DNA of 45,245 bases from Oscillospiraceae bacterium (GTDB taxonomy: Bacteria > Bacillota > Clostridia > Oscillospirales > Oscillospiraceae): positions 1-45,245 of the forward strand of contig JAFSCK010000154.1 of assembly GCA_017436785.1 (NCBI GenBank), written 5' to 3'. A program made the translations under genes and the position numbers. Position 1 is the first letter of the stretch. Every line of letters starts with the position of its first letter. Below are positions 14,838 through 31,871 of this stretch, one piece after another. Under the pieces are notes generated by a model. It was not told the origin of the DNA. It did no database searches and was given only the letters and a program-made list of their open reading frames with translations.

Positions 14838-14938
14838 GTCGTTGCGAGGAGCAAAGCGACGTGGCAATCTCCTTCAGGTTTCTGCGCGGACTTTTGAGGG
14901 GGATTGCCACACCAGTCTGCGGACTGGTTCGCAATGAC
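14838..14938. repeat. Family A repeat, copy 2, inside the phage cassette
   Basis: Ends are GTCGTTGCGAGG (one change from consensus) and TTCGCAATGAC. It begins 6 bp after the protease stop and ends 56 bp before the capsid start. Confidence 0.9.
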
Positions 14939-17826: not shown

Positions 17827-19389
17827 TTAAGCGGGGTAGAACAGGGGGGTGTTGATGCCGATGGGCAGGCCGATGGTCAGCCAGATGATCAGCATAACAG
17901 TCCAGCTTACCAGGAAGGCGATGGAGTAGGGCAGCATGGTAGCAGTGATGGTGCCGATGCCGGCCTTCTTATCGTACTTCTGAGCGAAGATGATGATGAC
18001 AGCGTAGTAGGTCATCAGAGGAGTGATGATGTTGGTGCAGCTGTCGCCCACACGGTAGGCCAGCTGGCACAGCTCGGGGCTGTAGCCCAGCAGCATGAAC
18101 ATGGGAACAAAGACGGGGGCCAGAATGTTCCACTTTGCGGAAGCGGAGCCCATGAACAGGTTCATGAAGGCGGAGAACAGCACGAAGATGACCATCAGAG
18201 GGATCAGGCCGATGTTGATGGACTTCAGGAAGGAAGCACCGGACAGGGCGATGATGGTGCCCAGCTTGGTGTAGGAGAAGTAGTTGATGAACTGTGCGGA
18301 AACGAAGGCCAGAGCCAAGAAGGAGCCCATATCAGCCATGGAAGCGGACATAGCACCGGCGATGTCCTTATCAGACTTGAACTTGCCAACGGTCTTGCCG
18401 TAAGCCACAGCGGGGATGAAGAACAGCATGGCGATCAGGACGATGAGGCTGTTGATCAGAGGAGTGGAGCCCAGCAGCTCGCCCTTGTCGTTGCGGAAGA
18501 AGGAGTCGGCGGGGATGCACATTGCCACGATAATGCCGACGAAGACCAGTGCAGCGATGCCGGCGTTGCGCAGGCCCTTGCGCTGGATGTCGGTGACGGT
18601 GGTCAGGGAATGGTCACTCTCGCCATCCACAGTGCCCTCAAACTTGCCCAGACGGGGCTCAACGATCTTGTCGGTGATGATGGTGCCCAGCAGGGTGATC
18701 AGGAAGGTGGACGCGCACATGAAGATGTAGTTGCCCATGATCTGGACTTCGTAAGCGGGATCCAGAATGTCAACGGCAGCCTGTGTGATGCCGCCCAGCA
18801 GGGGGTCCAGAGTGCCCACCAGCAGGTTGGCGGAGAAGCCGCCGGAAACACCGGCGAAGGCAGCAGCGAGGCCCGCAATGGGGTGACGGCCGCAGGCATG
18901 GAACATCATGGCGCCCAGAGGGATCAGGATGACGTAGCCAGCGTCAGAAGCAATGTTGGACATGACGCCAAGGAAGACGATCATGGGGGTCAGCAGCTTC
19001 TTGGGGGTGGACTTGACCACGTTCTTCAGCAGGGTGTCGATCATGCCGGACTTCTCAGCGACGCCGACGCCCAGCATAGCTACCAGAACCATGCCCAGAG
19101 GTGCGTAGGTGGTGAAGTTGTTGACAGCGCTGGTGAAGATGTAGGCGAGGCCTTCCTTGGTCAGCAGGCTGACAGCGGTGACAGTGGTCTCCTTCAGCTC
19201 GCCGCCGGAAACCAGATTACCGGTAGCGGATACGCCGAGGGCGGCGCAGACTGCGGAGATGATGACGACAGCCAGTGCGAAAATGGCAAACAGGGTAACG
19301 GGGTGGGGCAGTGCATTGCCGACGCGCTCAATGGCATTGAGGCTCCGGGTCAGCCAGCTGCCCTGCTTCTTTTCAGGGTTCTTGGACAT
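17827..19389 (-). CDS. AbgT-family transporter (p-aminobenzoyl-glutamate type)
   Basis: A 520-residue membrane protein of normal AbgT length with about 12 hydrophobic segments. It carries the family-typical N-terminal IERVGNALPHPVTLF start and the repeated re-entrant-loop regions (VMSNIASDAGYVILIPL; SASAKWNILAPVFVPM; YRVGDSCTNIITPL). Family members import p-aminobenzoyl-glutamate, a folate breakdown product, or export sulfonamides. It sits on the same strand just downstream of the purine operon but has its own promoter at 19463-19492. The codon usage suggests good expression. Confidence 0.92.
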   Translation of the reverse strand: MSKNPEKKQGSWLTRSLNAIERVGNALPHPVTLFAIFALAVVIISAVCAALGVSATGNLVSGGELKETTVTAVSLLTKEGLAYIFTSAVNNFTTYAPLGMVLVAMLGVGVAEKSGMIDTLLKNVVKSTPKKLLTPMIVFLGVMSNIASDAGYVILIPLGAMMFHACGRHPIAGLAAAFAGVSGGFSANLLVGTLDPLLGGITQAAVDILDPAYEVQIMGNYIFMCASTFLITLLGTIITDKIVEPRLGKFEGTVDGESDHSLTTVTDIQRKGLRNAGIAALVFVGIIVAMCIPADSFFRNDKGELLGSTPLINSLIVLIAMLFFIPAVAYGKTVGKFKSDKDIAGAMSASMADMGSFLALAFVSAQFINYFSYTKLGTIIALSGASFLKSINIGLIPLMVIFVLFSAFMNLFMGSASAKWNILAPVFVPMFMLLGYSPELCQLAYRVGDSCTNIITPLMTYYAVIIIFAQKYDKKAGIGTITATMLPYSIAFLVSWTVMLIIWLTIGLPIGINTPLFYPA

Positions 19390-19681: not shown

Positions 19682-22600
19682 TTATTTAAAGTACTTGACG
19701 GCGGCCTTGAACATCTGGTTGTCGTATTCACCGGGGACGTTCTTGTACAGGCCCTTGCCGATACGCTCGCTGTGGCCCATCTTACCGAAGACGCGGCCAT
19801 CGGGAGAGGTGATGCCCTCAATGGCGAACAGGGAGCCGTTGGGGTTGAAAGCGGTGTCCATGGTGGGATTGCCCTCCAAGTCAACGTACTGGGTTGCGAT
19901 CTGACCGTTTGCAGCCAGCTGCAGGGCCAGCTCCTCGGAAGCCAGGAACTTGCCTTCGCCGTGGGAGATGGGGACATTGACGATGTCGCCCACATTCATC
20001 AGGCTCAGCCAGGGACTCTTGTTGGAGGCAATCCGGGTCCGGACGATGCGGCTCTGGTGGCGGGCGATGGTGTTAAAGGTCAGGGTGGGGCAGCTGGCGT
20101 CGGTGTCGCGGATCTCGCCGTAGGGTACCAGACCCAGCTTGATGAGGGCCTGGAAGCCGTTGCAGATGCCGCACATCAGACCGTCCCGGTCATTCAGCAG
20201 GCGGGTGACCTGCTCCTTGATGGCGGGATTGCGGAAGAAGGCGGTGATGAACTTGGCGGAGCCGTCGGGCTCGTCGCCGCCGGAGAAGCCGCCGGGGATG
20301 AAAACAATCTGGCTTTCTGCGATCTTGGCAGCCACAGTCTCCACGCTGCGGGCAACGTCTTCAGCGGTCAGGTTACGGATGACCACGATATCGGCCTCGG
20401 CACCGGCATCCATAACGGCACGGGCGGAGTCGTACTCACAGTTGGTGCCGGGGAAGACGGGGATCAGGACCTTGGGCTTGGCCACCTTCACAGCGGGTGC
20501 CAGAGAAACGGTACCGGAGGAGGCGAAAGCGGGGATGGCCTTGTCGGTTTCCTTCGTCTTGGTGGGGTAGACCTTTTCCAGAACGGCAGTGTTCAGCGCA
20601 TACAGCTCGGAAATGGAGACTGTCTCACCGCCGTAGGTAATGGTTTCCTCAGCGGTGGTCCAGCCGATCAGCTCAGCGCCTTCGATCTCCTGAGAAAGCT
20701 CTGCGATGATCTCGCCATAGGCAGGACCGTATTGCAGGGCAGCCTCAGGGTTGGCCTTGAAGCCGATGGCGTTGCCGAAGGACATCTTCATGACGGCCTC
20801 GGCGATGCCGCCGCCGTCTACAGCCCATGCGGCCTTCACCAGACCGGCCTGACACAGGGCGTGGTAGGCTTCCCAGTTCTTTTTCCAGCCCTCGTAATCG
20901 GACAGGCCGCAGCCGCCGAAGCGGTAAACGGGGTGACCGGCTTCCTTAAACTCGTTGGAGATGACCTCGCTGGCCTTGATGGGGGCGATGGCGAAGGAAA
21001 TGACGGTGGGGGGAACGTCCTTATCCAGGAAGGTGCCGGACATGGAGTCCTTGCCGCCGATGGCAGCGGCGTTCAGGCCCAGCTGGACCTCCAGAGCGCC
21101 CAGCAGTGCCTGGAAGGGCTTGCCCCAGCGTGCAGGCTCATTTCTCAGCTTCTCGAAGAACTCCTGCAGCGTCAGGTAGACCTTCTTGTAGTCAGCACCG
21201 GCAGCCACGATCTTGGCGATGGAGGAGATGATGCTGGCCTTGGCACCGGTGTAGGGATTGGCGGACAGCAGGTCGGGATCGCAGCCCCAGCCGAAGAGGC
21301 TTGCCTGATCGGTCTGCTGACCGGGCAGGACAGGCAGCTTGGCAGCCATGGCCTGAGTGGGGGTGGACTGGTTCTTGCCGCCGAAGGGCATCAGGACGGA
21401 GCCTGCGCCGATGGTGGCGTCGAAGCGCTCCACCAGACCCCGCTGGGAAGCGAACTTCAGGTTGGAAGCGATGCTGCGCAGGTCGCCGGAGGAGACGGGG
21501 GCCAGAGCATCCTTGCCCTCGGCAACGGAAACGGCGGTGTGCTTCACGGCACCGTTGGTATTCAGGAAGTCACGGCTCAGGTTGGCAATTTCGTTGCCCT
21601 TCCAGCTCATGACCATCCGGGCCTCCTCGGTGACGACAGCCACACGGTAGGCTTCCAGATTCTCCTGCTGGGCAAAGGCGATGAAAGCGTCGGCGTCCTT
21701 GGCTTCCACCACCACGGCCATACGCTCCTGAGATTCGGAGATGGCCAGCTCGGTGCCGTCCAGACCGTCGTACTTCTTGCGGACAGCATCCAGATCGATC
21801 CGCAGGCCGTCGGCCAGCTCGCCGATGGCAACGGAGACACCGCCTGCGCCGAAGTCGTTGCAGCGCTTGATGAGACGGGTGACTTCAGGGTTACGGAACA
21901 GGCGCTGGATCTTGCGCTCCTCGGGAGCGTTGCCCTTCTGGACCTCGGAGGCCATGGTAGTCAGGGACTTTAGGTTGTGGCTCTTGGAGGAGCCGGTGGC
22001 ACCGCCGATGCCGTCACGGCCGGTACGGCCGCCCAGCAGGATGACCACATCCCCGGCTTCGGGACGCTCCCGGCGGACATTGTAGGCGGGGGCAGCAGCC
22101 ACCACGGCGCCGCATTCCAAGCGCTTGGCGATGAAGCCTTCGTGGTACAGTTCGGCAACATGGCCGGTGGCAAGGCCGATCTGGTTACCGTAGGAGGAAT
22201 AACCGGCGGCAGCAGTCTGGCACAGCTTTCTCTGGGGCAGCTTGCCGGCCAGCGTTTCATTCAGAGCCTTCCGGGGATCACCGGCACCGGTGACGCGCAT
22301 GGCCTGATGGACATAAGCGCGGCCGGACAGGGGATCGCGGATACAGCCGCCGATACAGGTGGCGGCACCGCCGAAGGGCTCGATCTCGGTGGGATGGTTG
22401 TGGGTCTCGTTCTTGAACATCAGCAGCCAATCCTGATCCTCGCCATTGACGGTAGCGGTGACGTGGATGGAGCAGGCGTTGATCTCTTCGGATTCGTCCA
22501 GCTCAGGCAGCAGGCCACGCTTCTTCAGGCACTTGGTGGCGATGGTAGCAATGTCCATCAGGGTCTGGGGCCGGGCAGCGGCCTTCTCCTCGCCGTAAAC

Positions 22601-23362
22601 CTCGATGCGGGAAGCAAGGTAGGTCTCATAGGCCTTCTGGATCTCGGGATCGTCGATGCGGATGTTGTCTAAGTGGGTGGAGAAGGTAGTGTGGCGGCAG
22701 TGGTCGGACCAGTAGGTGTCCACGACGCGGATCTCGGTGATGGTGGGGTCCCGGTGCTCGGTGTCACGGAAGTAGGCCTGCAGGAACTTCAGGTCATCCA
22801 AGTCCATGGCAAGACCCAGCGTGTCCAGCAGATCGGACAGGCCCGCATCGTCCAGCGCAATGAAGCCGCTGATTGTGGCAACGGTTTCGGGGATGGCATA
22901 TTCCACAGCCAGCGTTTCGGGCTTTTCCAGAGCAGCCTCCCGGCTTTCCACGGCGTTGATGACATGCTTCTTGATGGCGGCGATCTCGGCTTCCGTCAGA
23001 GCGCCGGAGAGAACATAGACCTTAGCGGTGTGGATGGTGGGACGGTTTCCCTGAGAGATGATCTGGATGCACTGGGCAGCGGAGTCGGCCCGCTGGTCGT
23101 ACTGGCCGGGCAGGGGCTCCACGGCAAAGACTACATCGCCGGTGGGGACCTCGTAGCTGACGTTGTCAACCTGAGGCTCGGAGAAGACGGTGTTCACGGC
23201 ATAGGAGAACAGGCCTTCTTCGATGTTTTCGGCATCGTAGCGGTTCAGCACCCGGACAGCGGTGAGGCTGTCGATCTGCAGGAAGTCCTTGATTTCCCGC
23301 AGCAGGCTGTCTGCCTCATGGGTCTGACCCAGTTTCTTTTCAACATATACGCGATAAACCAT
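19682..23362 (-). CDS. purL: Phosphoribosylformylglycinamidine synthase, single-chain
   Basis: A 1226-residue enzyme converting FGAR to FGAM with glutamine and ATP. It contains an N-terminal PurS-like region, two ATP-binding halves, and a C-terminal glutaminase domain (about 970-1226) with nucleophile in GLMCGICNGFQ and the catalytic pair in SHGEG. This is the one-chain form, so separate purQ and purS are not needed. The start at 23362 (MVYRVYVEKK) follows a perfect AGGAGG; an upstream ATG at 23413 is rejected because it lies across a repeat. It is the last gene of the purine operon. Confidence 0.97.
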   Translation of the reverse strand: MVYRVYVEKKLGQTHEADSLLREIKDFLQIDSLTAVRVLNRYDAENIEEGLFSYAVNTVFSEPQVDNVSYEVPTGDVVFAVEPLPGQYDQRADSAAQCIQIISQGNRPTIHTAKVYVLSGALTEAEIAAIKKHVINAVESREAALEKPETLAVEYAIPETVATISGFIALDDAGLSDLLDTLGLAMDLDDLKFLQAYFRDTEHRDPTITEIRVVDTYWSDHCRHTTFSTHLDNIRIDDPEIQKAYETYLASRIEVYGEEKAAARPQTLMDIATIATKCLKKRGLLPELDESEEINACSIHVTATVNGEDQDWLLMFKNETHNHPTEIEPFGGAATCIGGCIRDPLSGRAYVHQAMRVTGAGDPRKALNETLAGKLPQRKLCQTAAAGYSSYGNQIGLATGHVAELYHEGFIAKRLECGAVVAAAPAYNVRRERPEAGDVVILLGGRTGRDGIGGATGSSKSHNLKSLTTMASEVQKGNAPEERKIQRLFRNPEVTRLIKRCNDFGAGGVSVAIGELADGLRIDLDAVRKKYDGLDGTELAISESQERMAVVVEAKDADAFIAFAQQENLEAYRVAVVTEEARMVMSWKGNEIANLSRDFLNTNGAVKHTAVSVAEGKDALAPVSSGDLRSIASNLKFASQRGLVERFDATIGAGSVLMPFGGKNQSTPTQAMAAKLPVLPGQQTDQASLFGWGCDPDLLSANPYTGAKASIISSIAKIVAAGADYKKVYLTLQEFFEKLRNEPARWGKPFQALLGALEVQLGLNAAAIGGKDSMSGTFLDKDVPPTVISFAIAPIKASEVISNEFKEAGHPVYRFGGCGLSDYEGWKKNWEAYHALCQAGLVKAAWAVDGGGIAEAVMKMSFGNAIGFKANPEAALQYGPAYGEIIAELSQEIEGAELIGWTTAEETITYGGETVSISELYALNTAVLEKVYPTKTKETDKAIPAFASSGTVSLAPAVKVAKPKVLIPVFPGTNCEYDSARAVMDAGAEADIVVIRNLTAEDVARSVETVAAKIAESQIVFIPGGFSGGDEPDGSAKFITAFFRNPAIKEQVTRLLNDRDGLMCGICNGFQALIKLGLVPYGEIRDTDASCPTLTFNTIARHQSRIVRTRIASNKSPWLSLMNVGDIVNVPISHGEGKFLASEELALQLAANGQIATQYVDLEGNPTMDTAFNPNGSLFAIEGITSPDGRVFGKMGHSERIGKGLYKNVPGEYDNQMFKAAVKYFK

Positions 23363-23398
23363 GGGGTTGTTTCCTCCTAGTTTACAATTTTCAATATC

Positions 23399-23544
23399 GT
23401 AGGGCGGGGTCATGACCCCGCCGAGCAGGTGTGATGATGGCTTTGCTTGCGACGATTGGGATGGATTTGGAATATGCCATCGCCAATCTGGGAAAGCAAG
23501 CGGATAATTGTCAGGTGGTCGGCGGGGTCATGACCCCGCCCTAC
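23399..23544. repeat. Family B repeat between purD and purL
   Basis: A 146-bp element bounded by GTAGGGCGGGGTCATGACCC-CGCC and its inverse. Each end is itself a palindrome. The inner 98 bp contains the tracts GGGAAAGCAAGCGGATAATT and GATGGATTTGGAATATGCC and no gene. Confidence 0.92.
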
Positions 23545-23557
23545 AGTGGCGCTGCGA

Positions 23558-24823
23558 TTACTTCAGGGCCTGCAGGGCGCGCTGGCCGATGTCGCTTCTT
23601 CTGTAAGCGCCTTCAAACTGGACACCGTCGGACAGGCGGTAGGCTTCCTTGATGGCCTCTTCCAGAGAGGAGGCGATGGCGGTGGTGCCGGTGACACGGC
23701 CGCCGGAGGTGACCAGCTTGCCGCCGTCCAGCTTGGCACCGGCCACATAGGTGTGCTCCAGAGCTTCGGGGGTGAAGGTCATTTCAAAGCCCTTCTTGTA
23801 GCTGGTGGGGTAGCCGTTGGATGCCAGAATCACGCAGCAGGCGTGCTTATCGGCAAACTTGACCTCAGTCTCTGCCAGCGTGCCGTTGGTGGTTGCCTGC
23901 ATGACGGTCAGCAGGTCGCTTTCCAGCAGGGGCAGGACCACCTGCGTCTCGGGATCACCGAAGCGGCAGTTGTACTCAATGACCTTGGGACCCTTGGGGG
24001 TCAGCATCAGGCCGAAGTACAGGCAGCCCTTGAAGGTGCGGTTTTCTGCGTTCATGGCAGCGATGGTGGGAAGGAAGATGGCCTTCATGCACTCGTCGGC
24101 AATGTCGGCGGTGTAGTAGGGATTGGGGGCCACGGTGCCCATGCCGCCGGTGTTCAGGCCGGTGTCATTGTCGCCGATGCGCTTGTGGTCCATGGAGGAC
24201 ACCATGGGCTTGACCACATTGCCGTCGGTGAAAGCCAGCACGGAAACTTCGGGGCCGGTGAGAAATTCCTCAATGACCACGCGGCTGCCGGACTTACCGA
24301 AAATGCCGCCTTCCATCATATCAATGACGGCCTGCTTGGCTTCCTCCCGGGTCTGGGCGATGATAACGCCCTTGCCCAGTGCCAGACCGTCGGCCTTGAT
24401 GACGGTGGGGATGGGAGCAGTCTCCAGATAAGCAAGGGCCGCAGCCATATCCTCGAAGACCTCGTATTCGGCGGTGGGGATGCCGTACTTCTTCATCAGG
24501 TTCTTGGAGAAGACCTTGCTGCCCTCGATGATGGCGGCGTTTGCCCGGGGACCGAAGCAGGGGATGCCCTTAGCTTCCAGCGCATCCACGCAGCCAAGGA
24601 CCAGAGGATCGTCGGGAGCCACTACGGCGTAGTCGATGGCGTTTGCCACGGCAAATTCTACGATCTTCTCGATATCCGTAGCACCGATGGCCACGCAGGT
24701 GGCGTCAGCAGCAATGCCGCCGTTGCCGGGACAGGCAAAAATTTCGGTAACGGTGGGGTTCTTTTTCAGACTCTTGATGATGGCATGCTCTCTGCCGCCA
24801 CCACCAACGACCAGTAATTTCAT
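23558..24823 (-). CDS. purD: Phosphoribosylamine-glycine ligase
   Basis: A 421-residue ATP-grasp enzyme joining phosphoribosylamine and glycine. MKLLVVGGGGREHAI at the N-terminus is the classic PurD opening, followed by the ATP-grasp region and the ACCVILASNGYP segment. The start at 24823 has AGGAGG about 7 nt before it; the frame extends into the family A repeat upstream but that part is not coding. Second to last gene of the operon. Confidence 0.97.
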   Translation of the reverse strand: MKLLVVGGGGREHAIIKSLKKNPTVTEIFACPGNGGIAADATCVAIGATDIEKIVEFAVANAIDYAVVAPDDPLVLGCVDALEAKGIPCFGPRANAAIIEGSKVFSKNLMKKYGIPTAEYEVFEDMAAALAYLETAPIPTVIKADGLALGKGVIIAQTREEAKQAVIDMMEGGIFGKSGSRVVIEEFLTGPEVSVLAFTDGNVVKPMVSSMDHKRIGDNDTGLNTGGMGTVAPNPYYTADIADECMKAIFLPTIAAMNAENRTFKGCLYFGLMLTPKGPKVIEYNCRFGDPETQVVLPLLESDLLTVMQATTNGTLAETEVKFADKHACCVILASNGYPTSYKKGFEMTFTPEALEHTYVAGAKLDGGKLVTSGGRVTGTTAIASSLEEAIKEAYRLSDGVQFEGAYRRSDIGQRALQALK

Positions 24824-24848
24824 GGGGGAGTACCTCCTATATCGTGCT

Positions 24849-24944
24849 GTCATTGCGAGGAGCGAAGCGACGTGGCAATCCCCTTCAACAGCGTGAAAAC
24901 TTAGGGAGATTGCCACGCCAGTGTGCGCACTGGCTCGCAATGAC
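24849..24944. repeat. Family A repeat, copy 3, between AICAR transformylase and purD
   Basis: Ends are GTCATTGCGAGGAGCGAAG and GGCTCGCAATGAC, with the central GGCAATCCCC / GGGAGATTGCC pairing. It lies in the transcribed gap ahead of purD. Confidence 0.92.
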
Positions 24945-25015: not shown

Positions 25016-26200
25016 TTAGTGGTGGAACAGACGCATGCCGGTGAAGGCCATGACGATGCCGTTCTTGTTGCACTCCTCGATGACCAGATCATCGCGGATG
25101 GAGCCGCCGGGCTCGGCGATGTACTTGACACCGGAAGCAACGCCGCGCTTGACGGAGTCGGGGAAGGGGAAGAAGGCGTCGGAGCCCAGAGCAACTGCGT
25201 CACGGGAATCCAGCCATGCCCGCTTTTCCTCGGCAGTCAGAGGCTCGGGACGGGTGGTGAAGTAGTTCTGCCAGATGCCCTCAGCGCAGACATCCTCTTC
25301 GTTGCCGTTGATGTAGCCGTCAATGACGTTGTCGCGGCCGGGACGGCCCAGATCGGGGCGGAAGGGCAGGTTCAACGTCTTGGGATGCTGGCGCAGGAAC
25401 CAGGTATCGGCCTTGCCGCCGGCAAGACGGACACAGTGCACTCTGGACTGCTGACCGGCACCGACACCGATGGCCTGACCGTCGTAGGCAAAGCAGACGG
25501 AGTTGGACTGGGTGTACTTCAGGGTGATGAGGGACACGATCAGGTCGATCTTGGCATCCTCAGGCAGCTCCTTGTTCTCGGTGACGATGTTCTGCAGCAG
25601 GTGCTCGCCGATCTTAAAGTTGTTGCGGCCCTGCTCGAAGGTGATGCCGAAGATCTGCTTGCGCTCCTGTGCATCGGGAACATAGTTGGGATCGATGGCC
25701 ACCACGTTGTAGCCGCCCTTGCGCTTAGCCTTCAGAATGGCCAGAGCCTCGTCGGTGTAGCCGGGGGCGATAACGCCGTCGGAGACCTCGGGAGCGATGA
25801 GCTTGGCGGTCATTTCGTCGCAGACATCGGACAGAGCGACCCAGTCGCCGAAGGAGCACAGACGGTCAGCACCGCGGGCGCGGACGTAAGCGCAGGCCAG
25901 AGGATTCTCGTCCAGACCCTCCACATCTTCCACGAAGCAGGCCTTCTTCAGCTCCAGAGGCAGCACCTTGCCGACAGCGGCGGAGGTGGGAGAAACGTGC
26001 TTGAAGGAGGTGGCACAGGCCATGCCGGTGGCTTCCTTCAGTTCCTTGACCAGCTGCCAGGAGTTCAGGGCATCCATGAAGTTGATGTAGCCGGGACGGC
26101 CGTTGAGAATGGTGATGGGCAGCTCGCTGCCGTCGTGCATGTACAGGGAAGCAGGCTTCTGATTGGGGTTGCAGCCATACTTCAGTTCAAAATTAGTCAT
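25016..26200 (-). CDS. Stand-alone AICAR formyltransferase (PurH C-terminal-type)
   Basis: A 394-residue enzyme that formylates AICAR to FAICAR with 10-formyl-tetrahydrofolate. It covers only the transformylase portion of bifunctional PurH, including the catalytic K67-H68 in SFKHVSP. The cyclohydrolase (MGS-like) domain is missing and is supplied by the neighbouring PurO. The start at 26200 is preceded by GGAGG; an earlier in-frame ATG at 26227 lies in the repeat flank. This split arrangement is known in some Firmicutes and archaea. Confidence 0.93.
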   Translation of the reverse strand: MTNFELKYGCNPNQKPASLYMHDGSELPITILNGRPGYINFMDALNSWQLVKELKEATGMACATSFKHVSPTSAAVGKVLPLELKKACFVEDVEGLDENPLACAYVRARGADRLCSFGDWVALSDVCDEMTAKLIAPEVSDGVIAPGYTDEALAILKAKRKGGYNVVAIDPNYVPDAQERKQIFGITFEQGRNNFKIGEHLLQNIVTENKELPEDAKIDLIVSLITLKYTQSNSVCFAYDGQAIGVGAGQQSRVHCVRLAGGKADTWFLRQHPKTLNLPFRPDLGRPGRDNVIDGYINGNEEDVCAEGIWQNYFTTRPEPLTAEEKRAWLDSRDAVALGSDAFFPFPDSVKRGVASGVKYIAEPGGSIRDDLVIEECNKNGIVMAFTGMRLFHH

Positions 26201-26222
26201 TTGTAGTCCTCCAAAAGAAAGT

Positions 26223-26319
26223 GTCATTGCGAGGAGCGTAGCGACGTGGCAATCTCCATCAAATCAGCAGAAAGTTGGAGGGGATTGCCACACCAGTCTG
26301 CGGACTGGTTCGCAATGAC
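26223..26319. repeat. Family A repeat, copy 4, between purO and AICAR transformylase
   Basis: Ends GTCATTGCGAGGAGCGTAG and GGTTCGCAATGAC. It fills nearly all of the 129-bp gap. Confidence 0.92.
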
Positions 26320-26329
26320 AGTTGATGAT

Positions 26330-27043
26330 TTAGCAATGCTTATTGATAATGCGCTGCTCCACCTCGCGGGTGGCGATGTCGGTGTAGCGGACAAACAGGG
26401 AGATCTTGTTATTCTCGTCCAGATTGGTCCACAGCTCCTGAGTGAAGGCATCGATATTAGCGGGGATGGTGACCCGCTCAGGCTCGCCCTGGAAGGTGGG
26501 GATCACGGGATTGCCATCGCAGACATAGGTGTGCAGGAAGTGGCCCAGACCGGCAGTGGCGGGATACTCCCAGAAGAAACGGGCACAGGTGTTGCCCTCG
26601 GGGTCGGCGGCCTTCAGAATGGACATCTTGTAGGAGCCGTCGTTTGCCTGAATGCCGGAAATACGGGGGGTCCAGTTGGGGCCGTCGTCCTCAAACTGAC
26701 GGGTCCGCAGGGCAGCCTCCCAGCTTTCGCCCCGGGCAGCGAACTCCCAGATGGTGTCGGTCTGGTCACCGTTGGTGACGATCAGGCCGTTGCCCAGCTC
26801 CCGGACGGGATGGTAGATGATCAGGTGGGGGTCCTTCATCAGTGCGGGATCGTGTGCCTCGGTACGGATGCCGTCCTTCTCCTGAATGAAGACACGGTTC
26901 CGGGAATTGACGGAGCGGCCCATGATGAAGTAAGCGGCGACAGCCTTCTTGCCGTCGGGGGTGATGCCCAGCACAATGCCGCGGCCGGGATAGGTGTTGC
27001 CATCCAGACGCTCGGCCATGGTCTTGGTTTCGTAAACGTTCAT
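26330..27043 (-). CDS. purO: IMP cyclohydrolase, PurO family
   Basis: A 237-residue enzyme closing FAICAR to IMP, the last step of the pathway. The sequence follows the IMP_cyclohyd (PurO) family first found in archaea: YPGRGIVLGITPDG at the N-terminus, then FIMGRSVNSRNRVF and a conserved FLHTYVCDGNP toward the C-terminus. It sits next to a transformylase lacking the cyclohydrolase domain, so the two genes together replace purH. The start at 27043 has a modest GGAG site. Confidence 0.9.
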   Translation of the reverse strand: MNVYETKTMAERLDGNTYPGRGIVLGITPDGKKAVAAYFIMGRSVNSRNRVFIQEKDGIRTEAHDPALMKDPHLIIYHPVRELGNGLIVTNGDQTDTIWEFAARGESWEAALRTRQFEDDGPNWTPRISGIQANDGSYKMSILKAADPEGNTCARFFWEYPATAGLGHFLHTYVCDGNPVIPTFQGEPERVTIPANIDAFTQELWTNLDENNKISLFVRYTDIATREVEQRIINKHC

Positions 27044-27058
27044 GTTATTTCTCCATTC

Positions 27059-27138: not shown

Positions 27139-27765
27139 TTATTTGATGATAACGGTGCGTCCTTCCACGCTGATCCGGTCCTGACAGAACAGGGCTACGG
27201 CTTCGGGAAGGAGCTTCCACTCGGCCTGCTCCATGATCCGCTTCTGCAGCACCTCGGGGGTGTCGTCGTGGCGGACTTCCACTGCCCTCTGGGCAATGAT
27301 GGGGCCGCCGTCGCATTCGGCGCTGACGAAATGGACCGTTGCGCCGGAGAGCTTCACGCCGTATTCCAGTGCCTTCTCGTGGACGTGGAGGCCGTAGTAG
27401 CCTTCGCCGCAGAAGGAGGGGATCAGGGCGGGATGGACGTTCATAATGGCGTTGGGGTAGCTTTCCACCAGCTCCTCGGTGAAGATGACCATGCAGCCGG
27501 CCAGCACCACCAGATCGATGGACAGCGTTTTCAGCTGCTCCACCATGGCGGCGGTAAAGGCCCGGTTGGAGGGGTATTCCTTCCGGGGCACCACAAAGCC
27601 GGGGATGCCGGCCTTGGCGGCCCGCTCCAGTGCATAGGCACCGGCCTTGGTGGAGATAACGGCTGCGATCTGCCCGCCGCCCAGCTCACCGCGCTGCTGC
27701 GCATCGATGAGAGCCTGCAGGTTGGTGCCGCCGCCGGAAACCAGAACTGCGATTCTCTTGCCCAT
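27139..27765 (-). CDS. purN: Phosphoribosylglycinamide formyltransferase
   Basis: A 208-residue enzyme transferring a formyl group from 10-formyl-THF to GAR. It shows the opening VLVSGGGTNLQALI and the catalytic Asn/His stretch NVHPALIPSF (N106, H108) and a downstream Asp in the SAECDGGPII segment. The stop codon of purM shares a base with its start codon, so translation is coupled. Confidence 0.96.
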   Translation of the reverse strand: MGKRIAVLVSGGGTNLQALIDAQQRGELGGGQIAAVISTKAGAYALERAAKAGIPGFVVPRKEYPSNRAFTAAMVEQLKTLSIDLVVLAGCMVIFTEELVESYPNAIMNVHPALIPSFCGEGYYGLHVHEKALEYGVKLSGATVHFVSAECDGGPIIAQRAVEVRHDDTPEVLQKRIMEQAEWKLLPEAVALFCQDRISVEGRTVIIK

Positions 27766-28814
27766 TACAGGATCACCTTTTCCTCGCCCTCGACGATCTC
27801 GCCGATGACGTAGGCATCCTCACCGTGGGCCTTCAGGATCTCCAGCGCGGTCTCCACTTCGGCTGCGGGAACCACGATGCTCATGCCGACACCCATGTTG
27901 TAGGTGTTGAACATGTCGCGCTCGGGGATGTTGCCCCAAGCAGCGATCTCCTCGAAGATGGGCAGGATTTTGATGGCAGACTTGTCGATCTTGGCGCACA
28001 GGCCGTCGGGGATGGAACGGGGAATGTTCTCGTAGAAGCCGCCGCCGGTGATGTGGCTGATGCCCTTGACGTTGACCTTTTCCAGCAGAGCCAGAACGGG
28101 CTTGACGTAGATCTTGGTGGGGGTCAGCAGAGCTTCGGCAATGGTCTTGCCGCCCAGAGAATCCCGGGGAACATACAGCTCGGGGTTGTTGTTATCAATA
28201 TCGAAGACCTTGCGGCACAGGGAGAAGCCGTTGGAGTGGATACCGGTGGAGGGCAGAGCGATGACCACATCGCCCACTGCCATCTTGGCGTTGTCCAGAA
28301 TCTTCTTCTTGTCCACGATGCCCACAGCGAAGCCTGCCAGATCGTAGTCCTCCACAGGCATCATGCCGGGATGCTCGGCAGTCTCGCCGCCGATGAGGGC
28401 AGCGCCGGACTGGACACAGCCCTCAGCTACGCCGCCGACGATCTCAGCGATCTTCTCAGGGATGTTCTTGCCGCAGGCGATATAGTCCAGGAAGAACAGG
28501 GGCTTTGCGCCGACGCAGATGATGTCGTTGACGCACATGGCAACGGCATCGATGCCGATGGTGTCGTGCTTGTCCATGAGGATGGCCAGCTTGACCTTGG
28601 TGCCGCAGCCGTCGGTGCCGGAGACCAGAACAGGCTCCTCCATACCGGCGATGGGCAGACCGAAGCAGCCGCCGAAGCCGCCCACATCATCCAGACAGCC
28701 TTCGTTGCGGGTGCGGGCAACATGCTTCTTCATCAGCTCCACAGCACGGTAGCCGGCGGTGATGTCCACGCCTGCAGCCGCATAGCTGGCGGAGTAGGAA
28801 TTCTTGTGATCCAT
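27765..28814 (-). CDS. purM: Phosphoribosylformylglycinamidine cyclo-ligase
   Basis: A 349-residue enzyme making AIR from FGAM and ATP. Family landmarks visible are YAAAGVDITAGYRAVEL, GVGTD-like VSGTDGCGTKVKLA, GGETAEHPGM and SHITGGGFYENIPR. Normal length and start (after AGGAG). It overlaps purN by one base. Confidence 0.97.
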   Translation of the reverse strand: MDHKNSYSASYAAAGVDITAGYRAVELMKKHVARTRNEGCLDDVGGFGGCFGLPIAGMEEPVLVSGTDGCGTKVKLAILMDKHDTIGIDAVAMCVNDIICVGAKPLFFLDYIACGKNIPEKIAEIVGGVAEGCVQSGAALIGGETAEHPGMMPVEDYDLAGFAVGIVDKKKILDNAKMAVGDVVIALPSTGIHSNGFSLCRKVFDIDNNNPELYVPRDSLGGKTIAEALLTPTKIYVKPVLALLEKVNVKGISHITGGGFYENIPRSIPDGLCAKIDKSAIKILPIFEEIAAWGNIPERDMFNTYNMGVGMSIVVPAAEVETALEILKAHGEDAYVIGEIVEGEEKVIL

Positions 28815-28849: not shown

Positions 28850-28933
28850 GTCATTGCGAGGAGCGAAGCGACGTGGCAATCCCCTGAATCGAAGAAGATT
28901 GCCACACCAGTGTGCGCACTGGCTCGCAATGAC
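28850..28933. repeat. Family A repeat, copy 5, between purF and purM
   Basis: A short 84-bp copy with ends GTCATTGCGAGGAGCGAAG and GGCTCGCAATGAC. The centre is shorter than in other copies. Confidence 0.92.
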
Positions 28934-28943
28934 ATGCTAATGT

Positions 28944-30365
28944 TTATTCCTCGCCGGTCCAGCAGTAGGTGCAGACCTTGTCCCGGTCCAGACCGATGGC
29001 TTCCAGCAGGCCGTCCAGAGTCTGGTAGCCCAGAGAGTCAAAGCCCATTTCTTCACAGATGGACTTCAGCAGGCACTGACCGCGCTCGGTCTTGGCGTCG
29101 GCGTATTCCGCCAGATGCTGCTGTCCGACGTTGCCTTCCAGATTCTGGATGGTCTTGCGGGTCAGCAGTTCCATTTCAGAATTGCTCCGGGAGAAATTCA
29201 GGAACTTGCAGCTGTACATGATGGGGGGACAGGCGGAGCGCATATGCACTTCCTTGGCACCGGACTTGTACAGGAAATCCACTGTTTCCCGCAGCTGGGT
29301 GCCGCGAACGATGGAGTCGTCCACCAGCAGCAGCTTCTTGTCCTCAATGAGCTCGGGGACGGGGATCTGCTTCATTTCTGCGATCAGGTTGCGCATCTCC
29401 TGATTGCTGGGGGTAAAGGACCGGGCCCAAGTGGGGGTATACTTAACGAAGGGCCGGGCAAAGGGCTTGTGGGAGTGGTTGGCATAGCCGATGGCGTGGG
29501 GCAGGCCGGAGTCAGGGACACCGGCGATGTAGTCCACATCGGGCATGGTGCCGTGCTTTTCTTCTTCCCGGGCCATGATCTCGCCGTTGCGGCAGCGCAT
29601 GACCTCCACGTTCATGCCCTCGTAGTTGGAGTTGGGGTAGCCGTAGTAGCTCCACAGGAAGGCGCAGATCTTCATCTTGTCGCCGGGAGCAGCCAGCTGA
29701 GTAAAGCCGTCGGCGGTGATCTTCATGATCTCGCCGGGACCCAGGTTGTAAACAGGGCTGTAGCCCAGCTTCTGGCAGGCAAAGGACTCCATGGATACGC
29801 AGCAGCCATTTTCGTTCTGACCGATGACGATGGGCAGGCGGCCCAGCTTGTCCCGGGCGGCGATAATGCCGCTGTCAGTCAGCAGCAGGATGGTGCAGGT
29901 GCCCTCAATCAGGTTTTGTGCGTACTTGATGCCTTCCACCAGATCACCGCAGCGGTTGATCAGTGCTGCGATCAGCTCGGAATCGTTGACCTTGCCGGAG
30001 GACATGGCCATGAAGTAATGGCCGGGAGCAGCAAAGGTCTCCTCCACGATCTTTTCGGCATTGTTGATGATGCCTACATTGGCGATGGCGAACATGCCCA
30101 GATGGCTGCGGACCAGCAGCGGCTGGGGATCGGTATCGGAAATGCAGCCGATACCGGCAGTGCCATCCATTTTGGCAAGATCGCCTTCGAATTTGGTGCG
30201 GAAGGGCGTGTTGGAAATGTTATGGATCTGACGGTCAAATCCCTTGACCTCGTCGTAAAAGGCCAGACCGCCCCGCTTGGTGCCCAGATGGGAGTGGTAG
30301 TCTGTGCCGAAGAAAACGTCGTATTTGCAGTTTTTACGGGAAATCGCCCCGAAGAAACCACCCAT
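28944..30365 (-). CDS. purF: PurF-like amidophosphoribosyltransferase lacking the catalytic cysteine
   Basis: A 473-residue homologue of the enzyme starting purine synthesis (PRPP + amide to phosphoribosylamine). The PRPP domain is intact: KLLLVDDSIVRGTQLRETV toward the C-terminus. The glutaminase half is not. Mature PurF needs an N-terminal Cys (CGVFGI or CGIVGI); here it reads MGGFFGAIS, with Gly in that place. The HxRYxT loop is replaced by GIGCISDTDPQPLL (71-84), and the oxyanion NG pair by a NVG/II segment (96-100). The first cysteine is C13. The protein may use free ammonia or get it from a partner. No second purF is in the window. Start 30365 follows AGGAGG. Confidence 0.9.
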   Translation of the reverse strand: MGGFFGAISRKNCKYDVFFGTDYHSHLGTKRGGLAFYDEVKGFDRQIHNISNTPFRTKFEGDLAKMDGTAGIGCISDTDPQPLLVRSHLGMFAIANVGIINNAEKIVEETFAAPGHYFMAMSSGKVNDSELIAALINRCGDLVEGIKYAQNLIEGTCTILLLTDSGIIAARDKLGRLPIVIGQNENGCCVSMESFACQKLGYSPVYNLGPGEIMKITADGFTQLAAPGDKMKICAFLWSYYGYPNSNYEGMNVEVMRCRNGEIMAREEEKHGTMPDVDYIAGVPDSGLPHAIGYANHSHKPFARPFVKYTPTWARSFTPSNQEMRNLIAEMKQIPVPELIEDKKLLLVDDSIVRGTQLRETVDFLYKSGAKEVHMRSACPPIMYSCKFLNFSRSNSEMELLTRKTIQNLEGNVGQQHLAEYADAKTERGQCLLKSICEEMGFDSLGYQTLDGLLEAIGLDRDKVCTYCWTGEE

Positions 30366-30389
30366 AAAAGGTATCCTCCTTATGTATGT

Positions 30390-30514: not shown

Positions 30515-31204
30515 TTAAGCGAAGAACAGGCCGTTCAGGGTCATGGGATCGATGTACTGGCCGTCCTTGTAGACGCGCATATTGCCGGAAGCGACTTCGT
30601 CGATCAGCATGACATTGCCCTCGGGATCGTAGCCGAACTCGAACTTAATGTCGTACAGCTCCAGACCCTTTGCAGCCAGATCGTCAGCCACGATCTTGGT
30701 GATGGCCTGAGTCTGGGCCTTCAGGGACTCGTACTGCTCGGCGGTCATGACGCCCAGATCCACCAGACCGTCCTTGGTGACCAGAGGATCGCCCAGAGCG
30801 TCGTTCTTGAAGGTGGTCTCTACGTAGTAGGGCAGATCCTGACCCTCGGTGCAGTACTGGTTGTAGCGGCGGAAGAAGGAGCCAACGGCCTTGCGGCGGC
30901 AGATGACCTCCAGACCCTTGCCAAAGACCTTGGCGGGCAGGACTTCCATGGTGGTGTTGGCCAGATCAGCGGAAACGTAGTGGGTGCGGATGCCGGCGGC
31001 ATTGATCTTTTCGAAGTAGTAGATGGACATGCGCAGGTTCACATCGCCCACGCCCTCGATGGTCAGGCCCACGGAGTTCTCGCCGGGATCAAACACGCCG
31101 TCCTTGCCGGTGCAGTCATCCTTGAACAGCAGCAGGCAGTTGCCGTTGGGCAGTTCGTAAACATTCTTGGTCTTACCGGTGTACAGCAGCTTCAGGTTTT
31201 CCAT
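30515..31204 (-). CDS. purC: SAICAR synthase
   Basis: A 229-residue enzyme ligating CAIR and aspartate. It opens [12 protein letters not shown], and has [16 protein letters not shown] and [12 protein letters not shown] segments of the ATP and substrate sites. The usual SPDxxR end motif is replaced by a [14 protein letters not shown] segment, as in shorter Clostridial versions. The start at 31204 has AGAGG. Second gene of the operon. Confidence 0.94.
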
Positions 31205-31255
31205 AGTTAAATTACCTCTTTCTGAAAATGTAGGTGTATGAATCAAAAAATGAAT

Positions 31256-31376: not shown

Positions 31377-31871
31377 TTACTTATTCAGCTCGGCCTGCAA
31401 TGCAGCGTCCTTTTCCAGAACCTTGGCGGCATCGGCCTTGCGCTTGGCATCCAGCTTGGCGGCCAGCTCGGCATCCTCCACAGCCAGAATCTGAGCGGAC
31501 AACAAAGCGGCATTGACACCTCCGTTGATGGCTACGGTGGCAACAGGGATACCGGAGGGCATCATGACCGTAGAAAGGAGTGCGTCCATGCCGTCGAGAC
31601 AGGTAGACTTGCAGGGGATGCCGATGACAGGCAGGGTGGTGTTGGCTGCAATGGCACCGGCAAGGTGCGCAGCCATACCGGCTGCGGCGATCATCACGCC
31701 AAAGCCGTTTTTGCGGGCGTTTACAGCAAAATCCCGTGCTTCCTCGGGGGTGCGGTGTGCGGAAAAGACGTGGCACTCAAAGGGAATGCCCAGAGAGGAC
31801 AGGGTGTCCATGGTCTTGCGCAGGATCGGCAGATCGCTGTCGCTGCCCATGACGATACCAACTTTTTTCAT
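31377..31871 (-). CDS. purE: N5-carboxyaminoimidazole ribonucleotide mutase (class I PurE)
   Basis: A 164-residue enzyme moving the carboxylate of N5-CAIR to CAIR. GSDSDLP, SAHRTPE, AAGMAAHLAGAIAA and LSTVMMPSGIPVATVAI are the class I landmarks, and class I normally needs PurK, which is not found in this window. First gene of the purine operon, with AGGAGG at the start and the ZTP-type leader ahead of it. Confidence 0.95.
   Translation of the reverse strand: MKKVGIVMGSDSDLPILRKTMDTLSSLGIPFECHVFSAHRTPEEARDFAVNARKNGFGVMIAAAGMAAHLAGAIAANTTLPVIGIPCKSTCLDGMDALLSTVMMPSGIPVATVAINGGVNAALLSAQILAVEDAELAAKLDAKRKADAAKVLEKDAALQAELNK

Follow-up and report, generated by a model that had tools for sequence, protein, structure and literature searches.

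A PurF homologue without the glutaminase nucleophile in a clostridial purine operon, and the case for its dependence on ammonia

PurF, a textbook glutamine amidotransferase, catalyses the step of purine synthesis at which the pathway is committed and regulated. The purine operon on contig JAFSCK010000154.1 of an Oscillospiraceae genome (GCA_017436785.1) raises the question of how this step proceeds where the PurF homologue has glycine in place of the nucleophilic cysteine: which reaction this protein, here PurF', carries out, and from where it takes its nitrogen. The stretch analysed, referred to as the window, comprises 45,245 nucleotides.

The purF' gene and its operon

The reverse complement of positions 28944-30365 encodes a protein of 473 residues that begins with MGGFFGAISRKNCKYD and is terminated by a stop codon (Table 1). 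The original prediction gave the correct coordinates but left the strand unstated; the gene lies on the minus strand, and the plus frame is not the gene. Its placement inside a purine operon holds, in the order purE, purC, purF', purM, purN, purO, AICAR formyltransferase, purD and purL. The protein scores 174 bits against TIGR01134, half the cut-off of 350; the nearest NCBIfam family is purF, and the top sequence match in the PDB is the PurF of B. subtilis. The loss of glutaminase function looks specific to the PurF step, because the PurL encoded alongside it still has its glutaminase motifs.

Table 1. Features of the purine operon and of the purF' gene (window positions)
Feature	Position	Strand	Remarks
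purE	31377..31871	minus	
purC	30515..31246	minus	114 bits, TIGR00081 cut-off 190
Likely ribosome-binding site of purF', AAGGAGG	30375..30381	minus	just upstream of ATG
purF', PurF homologue without glutaminase nucleophile	28944..30365	minus	473 aa + stop
purF' start codon and Gly codon at the Cys1 position	30360..30365	minus	
Site of the glutamine-loop deletion (canonical R73-Y74-x-T76), residues 74-76	30138..30146	minus	
PRPP loop DDSIVRGTQ, residues 349-357	29295..29321	minus	
purM	27765..28814	minus	TIGR00878, 424 bits
purN	27139..27765	minus	TIGR00639, 204 bits
purO-like IMP cyclohydrolase	26330..27055	minus	40-44 bits, below purO cut-offs
AICAR formyltransferase, stand-alone	25016..26227	minus	NF005492
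purD	23558..24940	minus	family match starts at residue 40 of open frame
purL, long form	19682..23413	minus	own class I glutaminase with Cys motif GICNGF and HGEG motif

Three further features of the region may be recorded. The open frame of purO reaches 27316 and so overlaps purN with some 87 upstream codons; since most relatives align only from about residue 88 of the frame, translation more likely starts near 27055. An AbgT-family transporter (17830-19389) lies on the same strand just downstream of purL. Lastly, CATTGCGAGGAGCGAAGCGACGTGGCAATC occurs in five near-identical copies (0-2 mismatches; positions 14840, 24851, 26225, 28852 and 30392; chance expectation 0), four of them at or near gene junctions of the operon; the copies at 28852 and 30392 are followed by the partly inverted end CTCGCAATGACA, and given this end and the junction placement the repeat is probably a small palindromic REP-like or mobile element.

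The glutaminase site and the synthase half

The residues are compared in an alignment of 137 clade members (the window protein included; two rows, G020 and L213, are near-copies) with 32 canonical PurF sequences, in E. coli PurF numbering; the purF' of G009, cut at a contig end, is excluded from N-terminus counts. As predicted, Cys1 is Gly in the window protein: its position 2 aligns with E. coli Cys1 and is the first aligned residue in the fold alignment, opposite residue 1 of 1ao0, 1gph and 1ecb. This position is Gly in 129/137 and Ser in the other 8; the N-terminal Cys nucleophile of PurF (TIGR01134) is thus missing from the window protein and from the whole clade. Cys1 is present in 31 of the 32 canonical rows, the remaining one (L067) having had its start clipped in extraction, with ECGLFG upstream. 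A Cys1 hidden behind an earlier start is rejected, as no in-frame CG[VIL] motif precedes any of 32 clade sequences, the window's included, within 15 codons upstream or up to the first stop; over the same stretch an isolated Cys codon occurs in L051, L053, L057, L061 and L063, and none in the window.

The remainder of the glutaminase site is dismantled as well. The HxRYxT loop, originally described as replaced, is indeed lost, through a deletion in 137/137 instead of a substitution; of the 'NG' oxyanion pair, also reported as replaced, Asn101 is (Val97 here; V, I, T or L throughout the 137), but Gly102 is kept here (126/137 overall). R26 is Leu or Met, and H71 is C, V, S, I, A or M, in every clade member; H100 is replaced in at least 135/137, and D127 is lost in 133/137, the four that keep Asp including the window protein. 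R26, the R73 loop, N101 and D127 are what we take to be the glutamine-binding residues of PurF; the first three are gone in 137/137.

The synthase half presents a different picture. The PRPP loop, predicted to be intact, is kept save for its last residue, T374, which is Gln in 137/137; K326, R332, D367, S368, V370, R371, G372 and T373 are unchanged in all 137, and the only other variation in the loop is Glu for D366 (8/137) and a differing I369 (3/137). The four cysteines presumably equivalent to the [4Fe-4S] ligands of B. subtilis-type PurF are also kept (C234 and C386 in 137/137, C465 and C468 in 136/137, one row being gapped), and the predicted fold of the window protein is the two-domain fold of PurF. 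The flexible loop KNRYVGRTF has become KYTPTWxRSF in the clade, one residue longer, with Pro for Y329 in 135/137. Y329 and I335 of E. coli PurF are, we assume, part of a loop that shuts over the active site and lines the ammonia channel, and their joint change would fit a rewired ammonia route; given the changed loop and the Gln at T374, substrate handling may differ from that of canonical PurF. One purF' (L064, in G085), on a long branch, carries a 16-residue insertion right after EG 410-411.

Taken together, PurF' resembles the canonical Fe-S PurF of B. subtilis (EC 2.4.2.14; 1ao0, 1gph) in its full-length fold, PRPP loop, Lys326 and Arg332 equivalents, Fe-S cysteines and operon setting, and differs from it in the absence of Cys1, the glutamine loop, Arg26, Arg73 and Asn101, in the extended flexible loop, in residue 374 and in its low family score. 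Its fold and very probably its reaction are PurF-like, but the defining feature of a glutamine amidotransferase is missing. The beta-lactam and carbapenam synthetases (1jgt, 1q15) are also among the comparable systems, with a different synthetase domain and pathway and no PRPP chemistry.

A separate lineage and its distribution

PurF' and its relatives form a deep sister clade of canonical PurF, a point that the original prediction had put up for checking: a single branch with SH-aLRT 100 separates the two, in a tree with a total length of more than 4 changes per site (built by a quick method, which may pull E. coli, a long row, closer to the Cys-less clade). Among the best 80 of 546 matches, relatives at 49-75% identity occur in nine bacterial phyla (Bacillota, Actinomycetota, Spirochaetota, Lentisphaerota, Planctomycetota, Acidobacteriota, Gemmatimonadota, Thermodesulfobacteriota and Bacteroidota) and on a contig labelled Heimdallarchaeota; single phylum placements may be misbinned, since many of these relatives sit on MAG contigs. 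The matches include the isolates Evtepia gabavorous and Adlercreutzia equolifaciens.

Both domains are under constraint. Mean pairwise identity is 57% in the N-terminal domain and 67% in the synthase domain of 40 random clade members, against 60% and 69% in canonical PurF (without E. coli). The N-terminal domain has residues of its own, D22 and D77 being invariant and Y23, S25, H48 and R56 nearly so. Its dN/dS is 0.015-0.064 in 12 close pairs outside the window's lineage (dS >1 in several; a 13th pair is saturated at synonymous sites) and is higher in two pairs within it, 0.18 (dS 1.6) and 0.30, so that constraint on the domain looks looser there. The low dN/dS of both domains reflects purifying selection, and PurF' is therefore not a product of decay; full-length open frames are found in 83/85 class carriers, while in the other two (G009, G235) the frame is cut short at or close to the end of a contig.

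A canonical purF elsewhere in the window genome, as the original prediction had allowed for, was not found in the rest of its 3.05 Mb (174 contigs, 91.4% complete, 7.3% contaminated), where the PurF family model matches only one other place, a glutaminase domain within an AsnB-like frame of 637 codons. The class to which the window belongs was sampled evenly with 293 genomes; 226 of them have a canonical PurF over the cut-off and 85 have the Cys-less form. Of these carriers, 27 have no detectable canonical PurF (canonical fragments below 1e-15 would go undetected), 57 have one (assigned by best E-value, 1e-143 or better), and one intermediate, G139, is omitted from both counts. Intermediate genomes number six in all (G048, G071, G139, G177, G221, G282), each with purM; with the 27 and the 35 that have neither PurF type they make 68, against 67 below the cut-off, as one intermediate counts as over it. 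The match in G071 (1.8e-44) lies outside the Cys-less clade, with no clade-query match at 1e-30, and may represent a fragment or another type of PurF.

Genome incompleteness predicts 2.5 carriers without canonical PurF, where 27 are observed; one of these (G211) is a single contig, and four belong to one genus (g58). Gaps in the assemblies may account for some of the 27 absences, and same-genus sisters with canonical PurF exist for G171, G042 and G132/G218/G279; the window's family sisters G029 and G273 have it too. The pathway itself follows the presence of a PurF: purM is found in 27/27 genomes with PurF' alone and in 1/35 with neither type (Fisher 1e-16, uncorrected for relatedness), p-values being here descriptive, because related genomes are not independent and some absences have canonical sisters in the same genus. 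As a positive control, purM was matched in five of six canonical-PurF genomes, all but G050, and among 14 controls Bacteroides ihuae gave no match. In a draw of 46 genomes of the family, the window genome being counted in both samples, 25 have canonical PurF, 12 only the Cys-less form (window included) and 9 neither; the other 11 sole genes all have Gly at position 1, and purM is present in 11/12 of the sole-PurF' genomes (the miss is a 70% complete genome) versus 0/9 of those with neither. Two single genomes depart from these patterns, G249 with purM and purO and neither PurF type, and G050 with canonical PurF and PurO and no purM match; missing contigs or divergent genes are possible in both.

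Genomes in which the Cys-less form is the sole PurF found retain the pathway, and those in which no PurF is found have lost it, so that the simplest reading is that PurF' does the PurF step. A capacity to replace PurF is suggested by the clade and by the pathway, neither of which specifies the nitrogen donor. The original view of a selected form and not decay is upheld by the deep clade, the low dN/dS, the lack of a second PurF in the genome and the retention of the pathway.

The setting of the gene varies. purM lies within the fetched stretch at 24/85 purF' loci, typically in the order purE-(purC)-purF'-purM-purN-purO-AICARft-purD-purL; the 61/85 loci with no purM in the stretch are an upper bound, as some contigs end. 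In 11 sole-PurF' genomes with purF' elsewhere, the fetched purM stretches contain other purine genes and no purF. A constant association of the clade with purO, raised earlier as a point to check, is rejected: purO is matched in 68/85 carriers and missing from 17, and 59 genomes with PurO are without the clade.

Nitrogen source and competing readings

No glutaminase stood out as a recurrent neighbour of purF' among 151 loci with a called purF', four genes being taken on either side. Around stand-alone purF' no family recurs at more than 8 of 112 loci, the number reached by carB, by MATE and by an unnamed cluster, in a count that is rough: 17/168 loci dropped out where gene calling passed over purF', presumably in favour of long antisense frames, and this also misplaced at least the window and L148 among the 112 'solo' loci. 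carB, MATE, pyrB, purB and pepT are all seen next to purF', none of them generally. A search for an orphan Ntn glutaminase (PF13537) in 8 sole-PurF' genomes gave no candidate common to them; besides purF' the matches are GlmS- or AsnB-like (by eye), with one extra match each in G000, G132 and G211 (hits L263, L271, L272). The search covered the Ntn type only, as distinct from class I glutaminases such as CarA and PurL. E. coli PurF mutants in which Ala or Ser takes the place of Cys1 can use ammonia but no longer glutamine, as cited in PMC3261824. With no widely recurring neighbour family in the rough count, no orphan Ntn glutaminase shared by the 8 genomes and the behaviour of these mutants, free ammonia is the most likely donor. 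The ammonia-dependent or partner-dependent form first proposed stays an inference, and of the two we favour ammonia.

The reading we favour, with a probability of about 0.7 and built on sequence comparison, is that PurF' is an ammonia-dependent PRPP aminotransferase able to replace glutamine-dependent PurF. Its C-terminal phosphoribosyltransferase domain would form 5-phosphoribosylamine from PRPP and free NH3, to be taken on by PurD from the same operon; the N-terminal Ntn-hydrolase domain would keep its fold without hydrolysing glutamine, and would serve structure, contacts within the oligomer or regulation. Carriers of PurF' in anaerobic habitats rich in ammonia could dispense with glutamine-dependent PurF, and canonical PurF would have been lost more than once among the carriers.

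Against this counts the N-terminal domain, whose near-canonical level of identity and own invariant residues exceed the needs of a dead domain. A tentative and rather unlikely variant is that in this ancient lineage the former glutaminase domain has been remade, around D22 and D77 with Y23, S25, H48 and R56, into a site that senses or delivers ammonia; if so, the committed purine step would be tied to ammonium instead of glutamine supply.

The same constraint and new invariant residues could also speak for a PurF' that depends on a partner, namely a distinct glutaminase that docks in trans and hands over NH3 or, where canonical PurF is present, the canonical subunits of a mixed oligomer, which would contribute the glutaminase activity. 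Canonical purF adjoins or lies near purF' in four carriers (G081, G166, G169, G175), and G313 looks alike; this, and the 57/85 carriers that keep canonical PurF, suggest a joint role there. Crenarchaeal purF and purF' likewise lie close together (PMC3261824, in excerpt). As a general account, however, partner dependence is unlikely in view of the 27 carriers without a detectable canonical subunit, the scarcity of recurring neighbours (at most 8 of 112, roughly counted) and the GlmS- or AsnB-like nature of the Ntn matches in the 8 genomes searched, apart from the three extra ones.

A further step down in probability is a PurF' that acts as a regulator or as a different phosphoribosyltransferase, phosphoribosylamine arising by another route, for example from ribose-5-phosphate and ammonia. 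The altered flexible loop and the Gln at T374 would suit such a protein, as would the canonical PurF of 57/85 carriers and the many loci with no purM nearby (61/85, an upper bound); but purM is present in all 27 sole-PurF' genomes and absent from 34/35 with neither type, and the PRPP residues are kept in 137/137 except for T374 and, in 8, D366. In Salmonella, moreover, no PurF-independent mechanism made enough phosphoribosylamine for purines, as stated in excerpts of PMC3485032. That route shares with PurF' the formation of phosphoribosylamine without glutamine-dependent PurF, sometimes from ammonia, but is described in these excerpts as non-enzymatic or promiscuous TrpD chemistry, whereas PurF' is a dedicated gene of the PurF family.

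It is very improbable that PurF' is still a glutamine amidotransferase with another nucleophile, either C13, which the original prediction had singled out, or Ser at position 1. The window protein has both C13, as do 64/84 class sequences, and an Asp at D127, and Ser occurs in 8/137; C13, however, is Ala or Val in 9/27 sole-PurF' genomes and is rejected as a replacement for lack of conservation, R26, R73 and N101 are gone throughout and D127 nearly so, and Ser in place of Cys1 abolishes glutamine use in E. coli, as does Ala (PMC3261824, in excerpt). That the gene is a pseudogene in decay or an artefact of the MAG, the genuine purF having escaped assembly, is largely refuted and retains next to no probability: the incomplete, contaminated and fragmented assembly, the canonical PurF of sisters G029 and G273 and the looser N-domain dN/dS of the window's lineage are outweighed by open frames in 83/85 class carriers, 27 absences against 2.5 expected, a sole Cys-less PurF in 12/46 family genomes and dN/dS far below 1.

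The closest known counterpart of the favoured ammonia-dependent enzyme is the crenarchaeal PurF' (Brown et al., 2011), a Cys-less paralogue for which, in the excerpted text of PMC3261824, ammonia dependence is put forward as an untested proposal. The bacterial protein is likened to it by the missing Cys1 and the proximity to purine genes, and by these features only. According to the same excerpts, a Cys1 PurF accompanies PurF' in every crenarchaeon studied, and position 1 is Ala or Val in many crenarchaeal PurF' proteins; the bacterial clade differs in having Gly or Ser there and in being often the sole PurF found, coexistence with Cys1 PurF being seen neither in the window genome nor in 27/85 carriers. 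A search of the open-licence literature, outside which most subscription papers lie, gave no report of a bacterial Cys-less PurF clade; Cys-less PurF is described there, as far as the excerpted texts go, only in PMC3261824, and the excerpts of PMC10912719 hold nothing on it.

If the ammonia reading is true, ammonia-dependent purine synthesis would be a normal strategy in many gut and rumen anaerobes, the nitrogen control of purine synthesis there would have to be modelled differently, and annotations as 'amidophosphoribosyltransferase' would need correcting. Organisms with PurF' alone offer a direct test of the 2011 archaeal proposal, free of confusion by canonical PurF.

Cys-less purF is also found beside pepT in records of a plasmid collection (L005, L006, L007), the pepT-linked hosts being Peptoclostridium acidaminophilum (809-kb plasmid) and Parabacteroides and Phocaeicola records; the 117-kb Parabacteroides 'plasmid' may be a chromosomal piece, because rplU-rpmA adjoins purF' on it.
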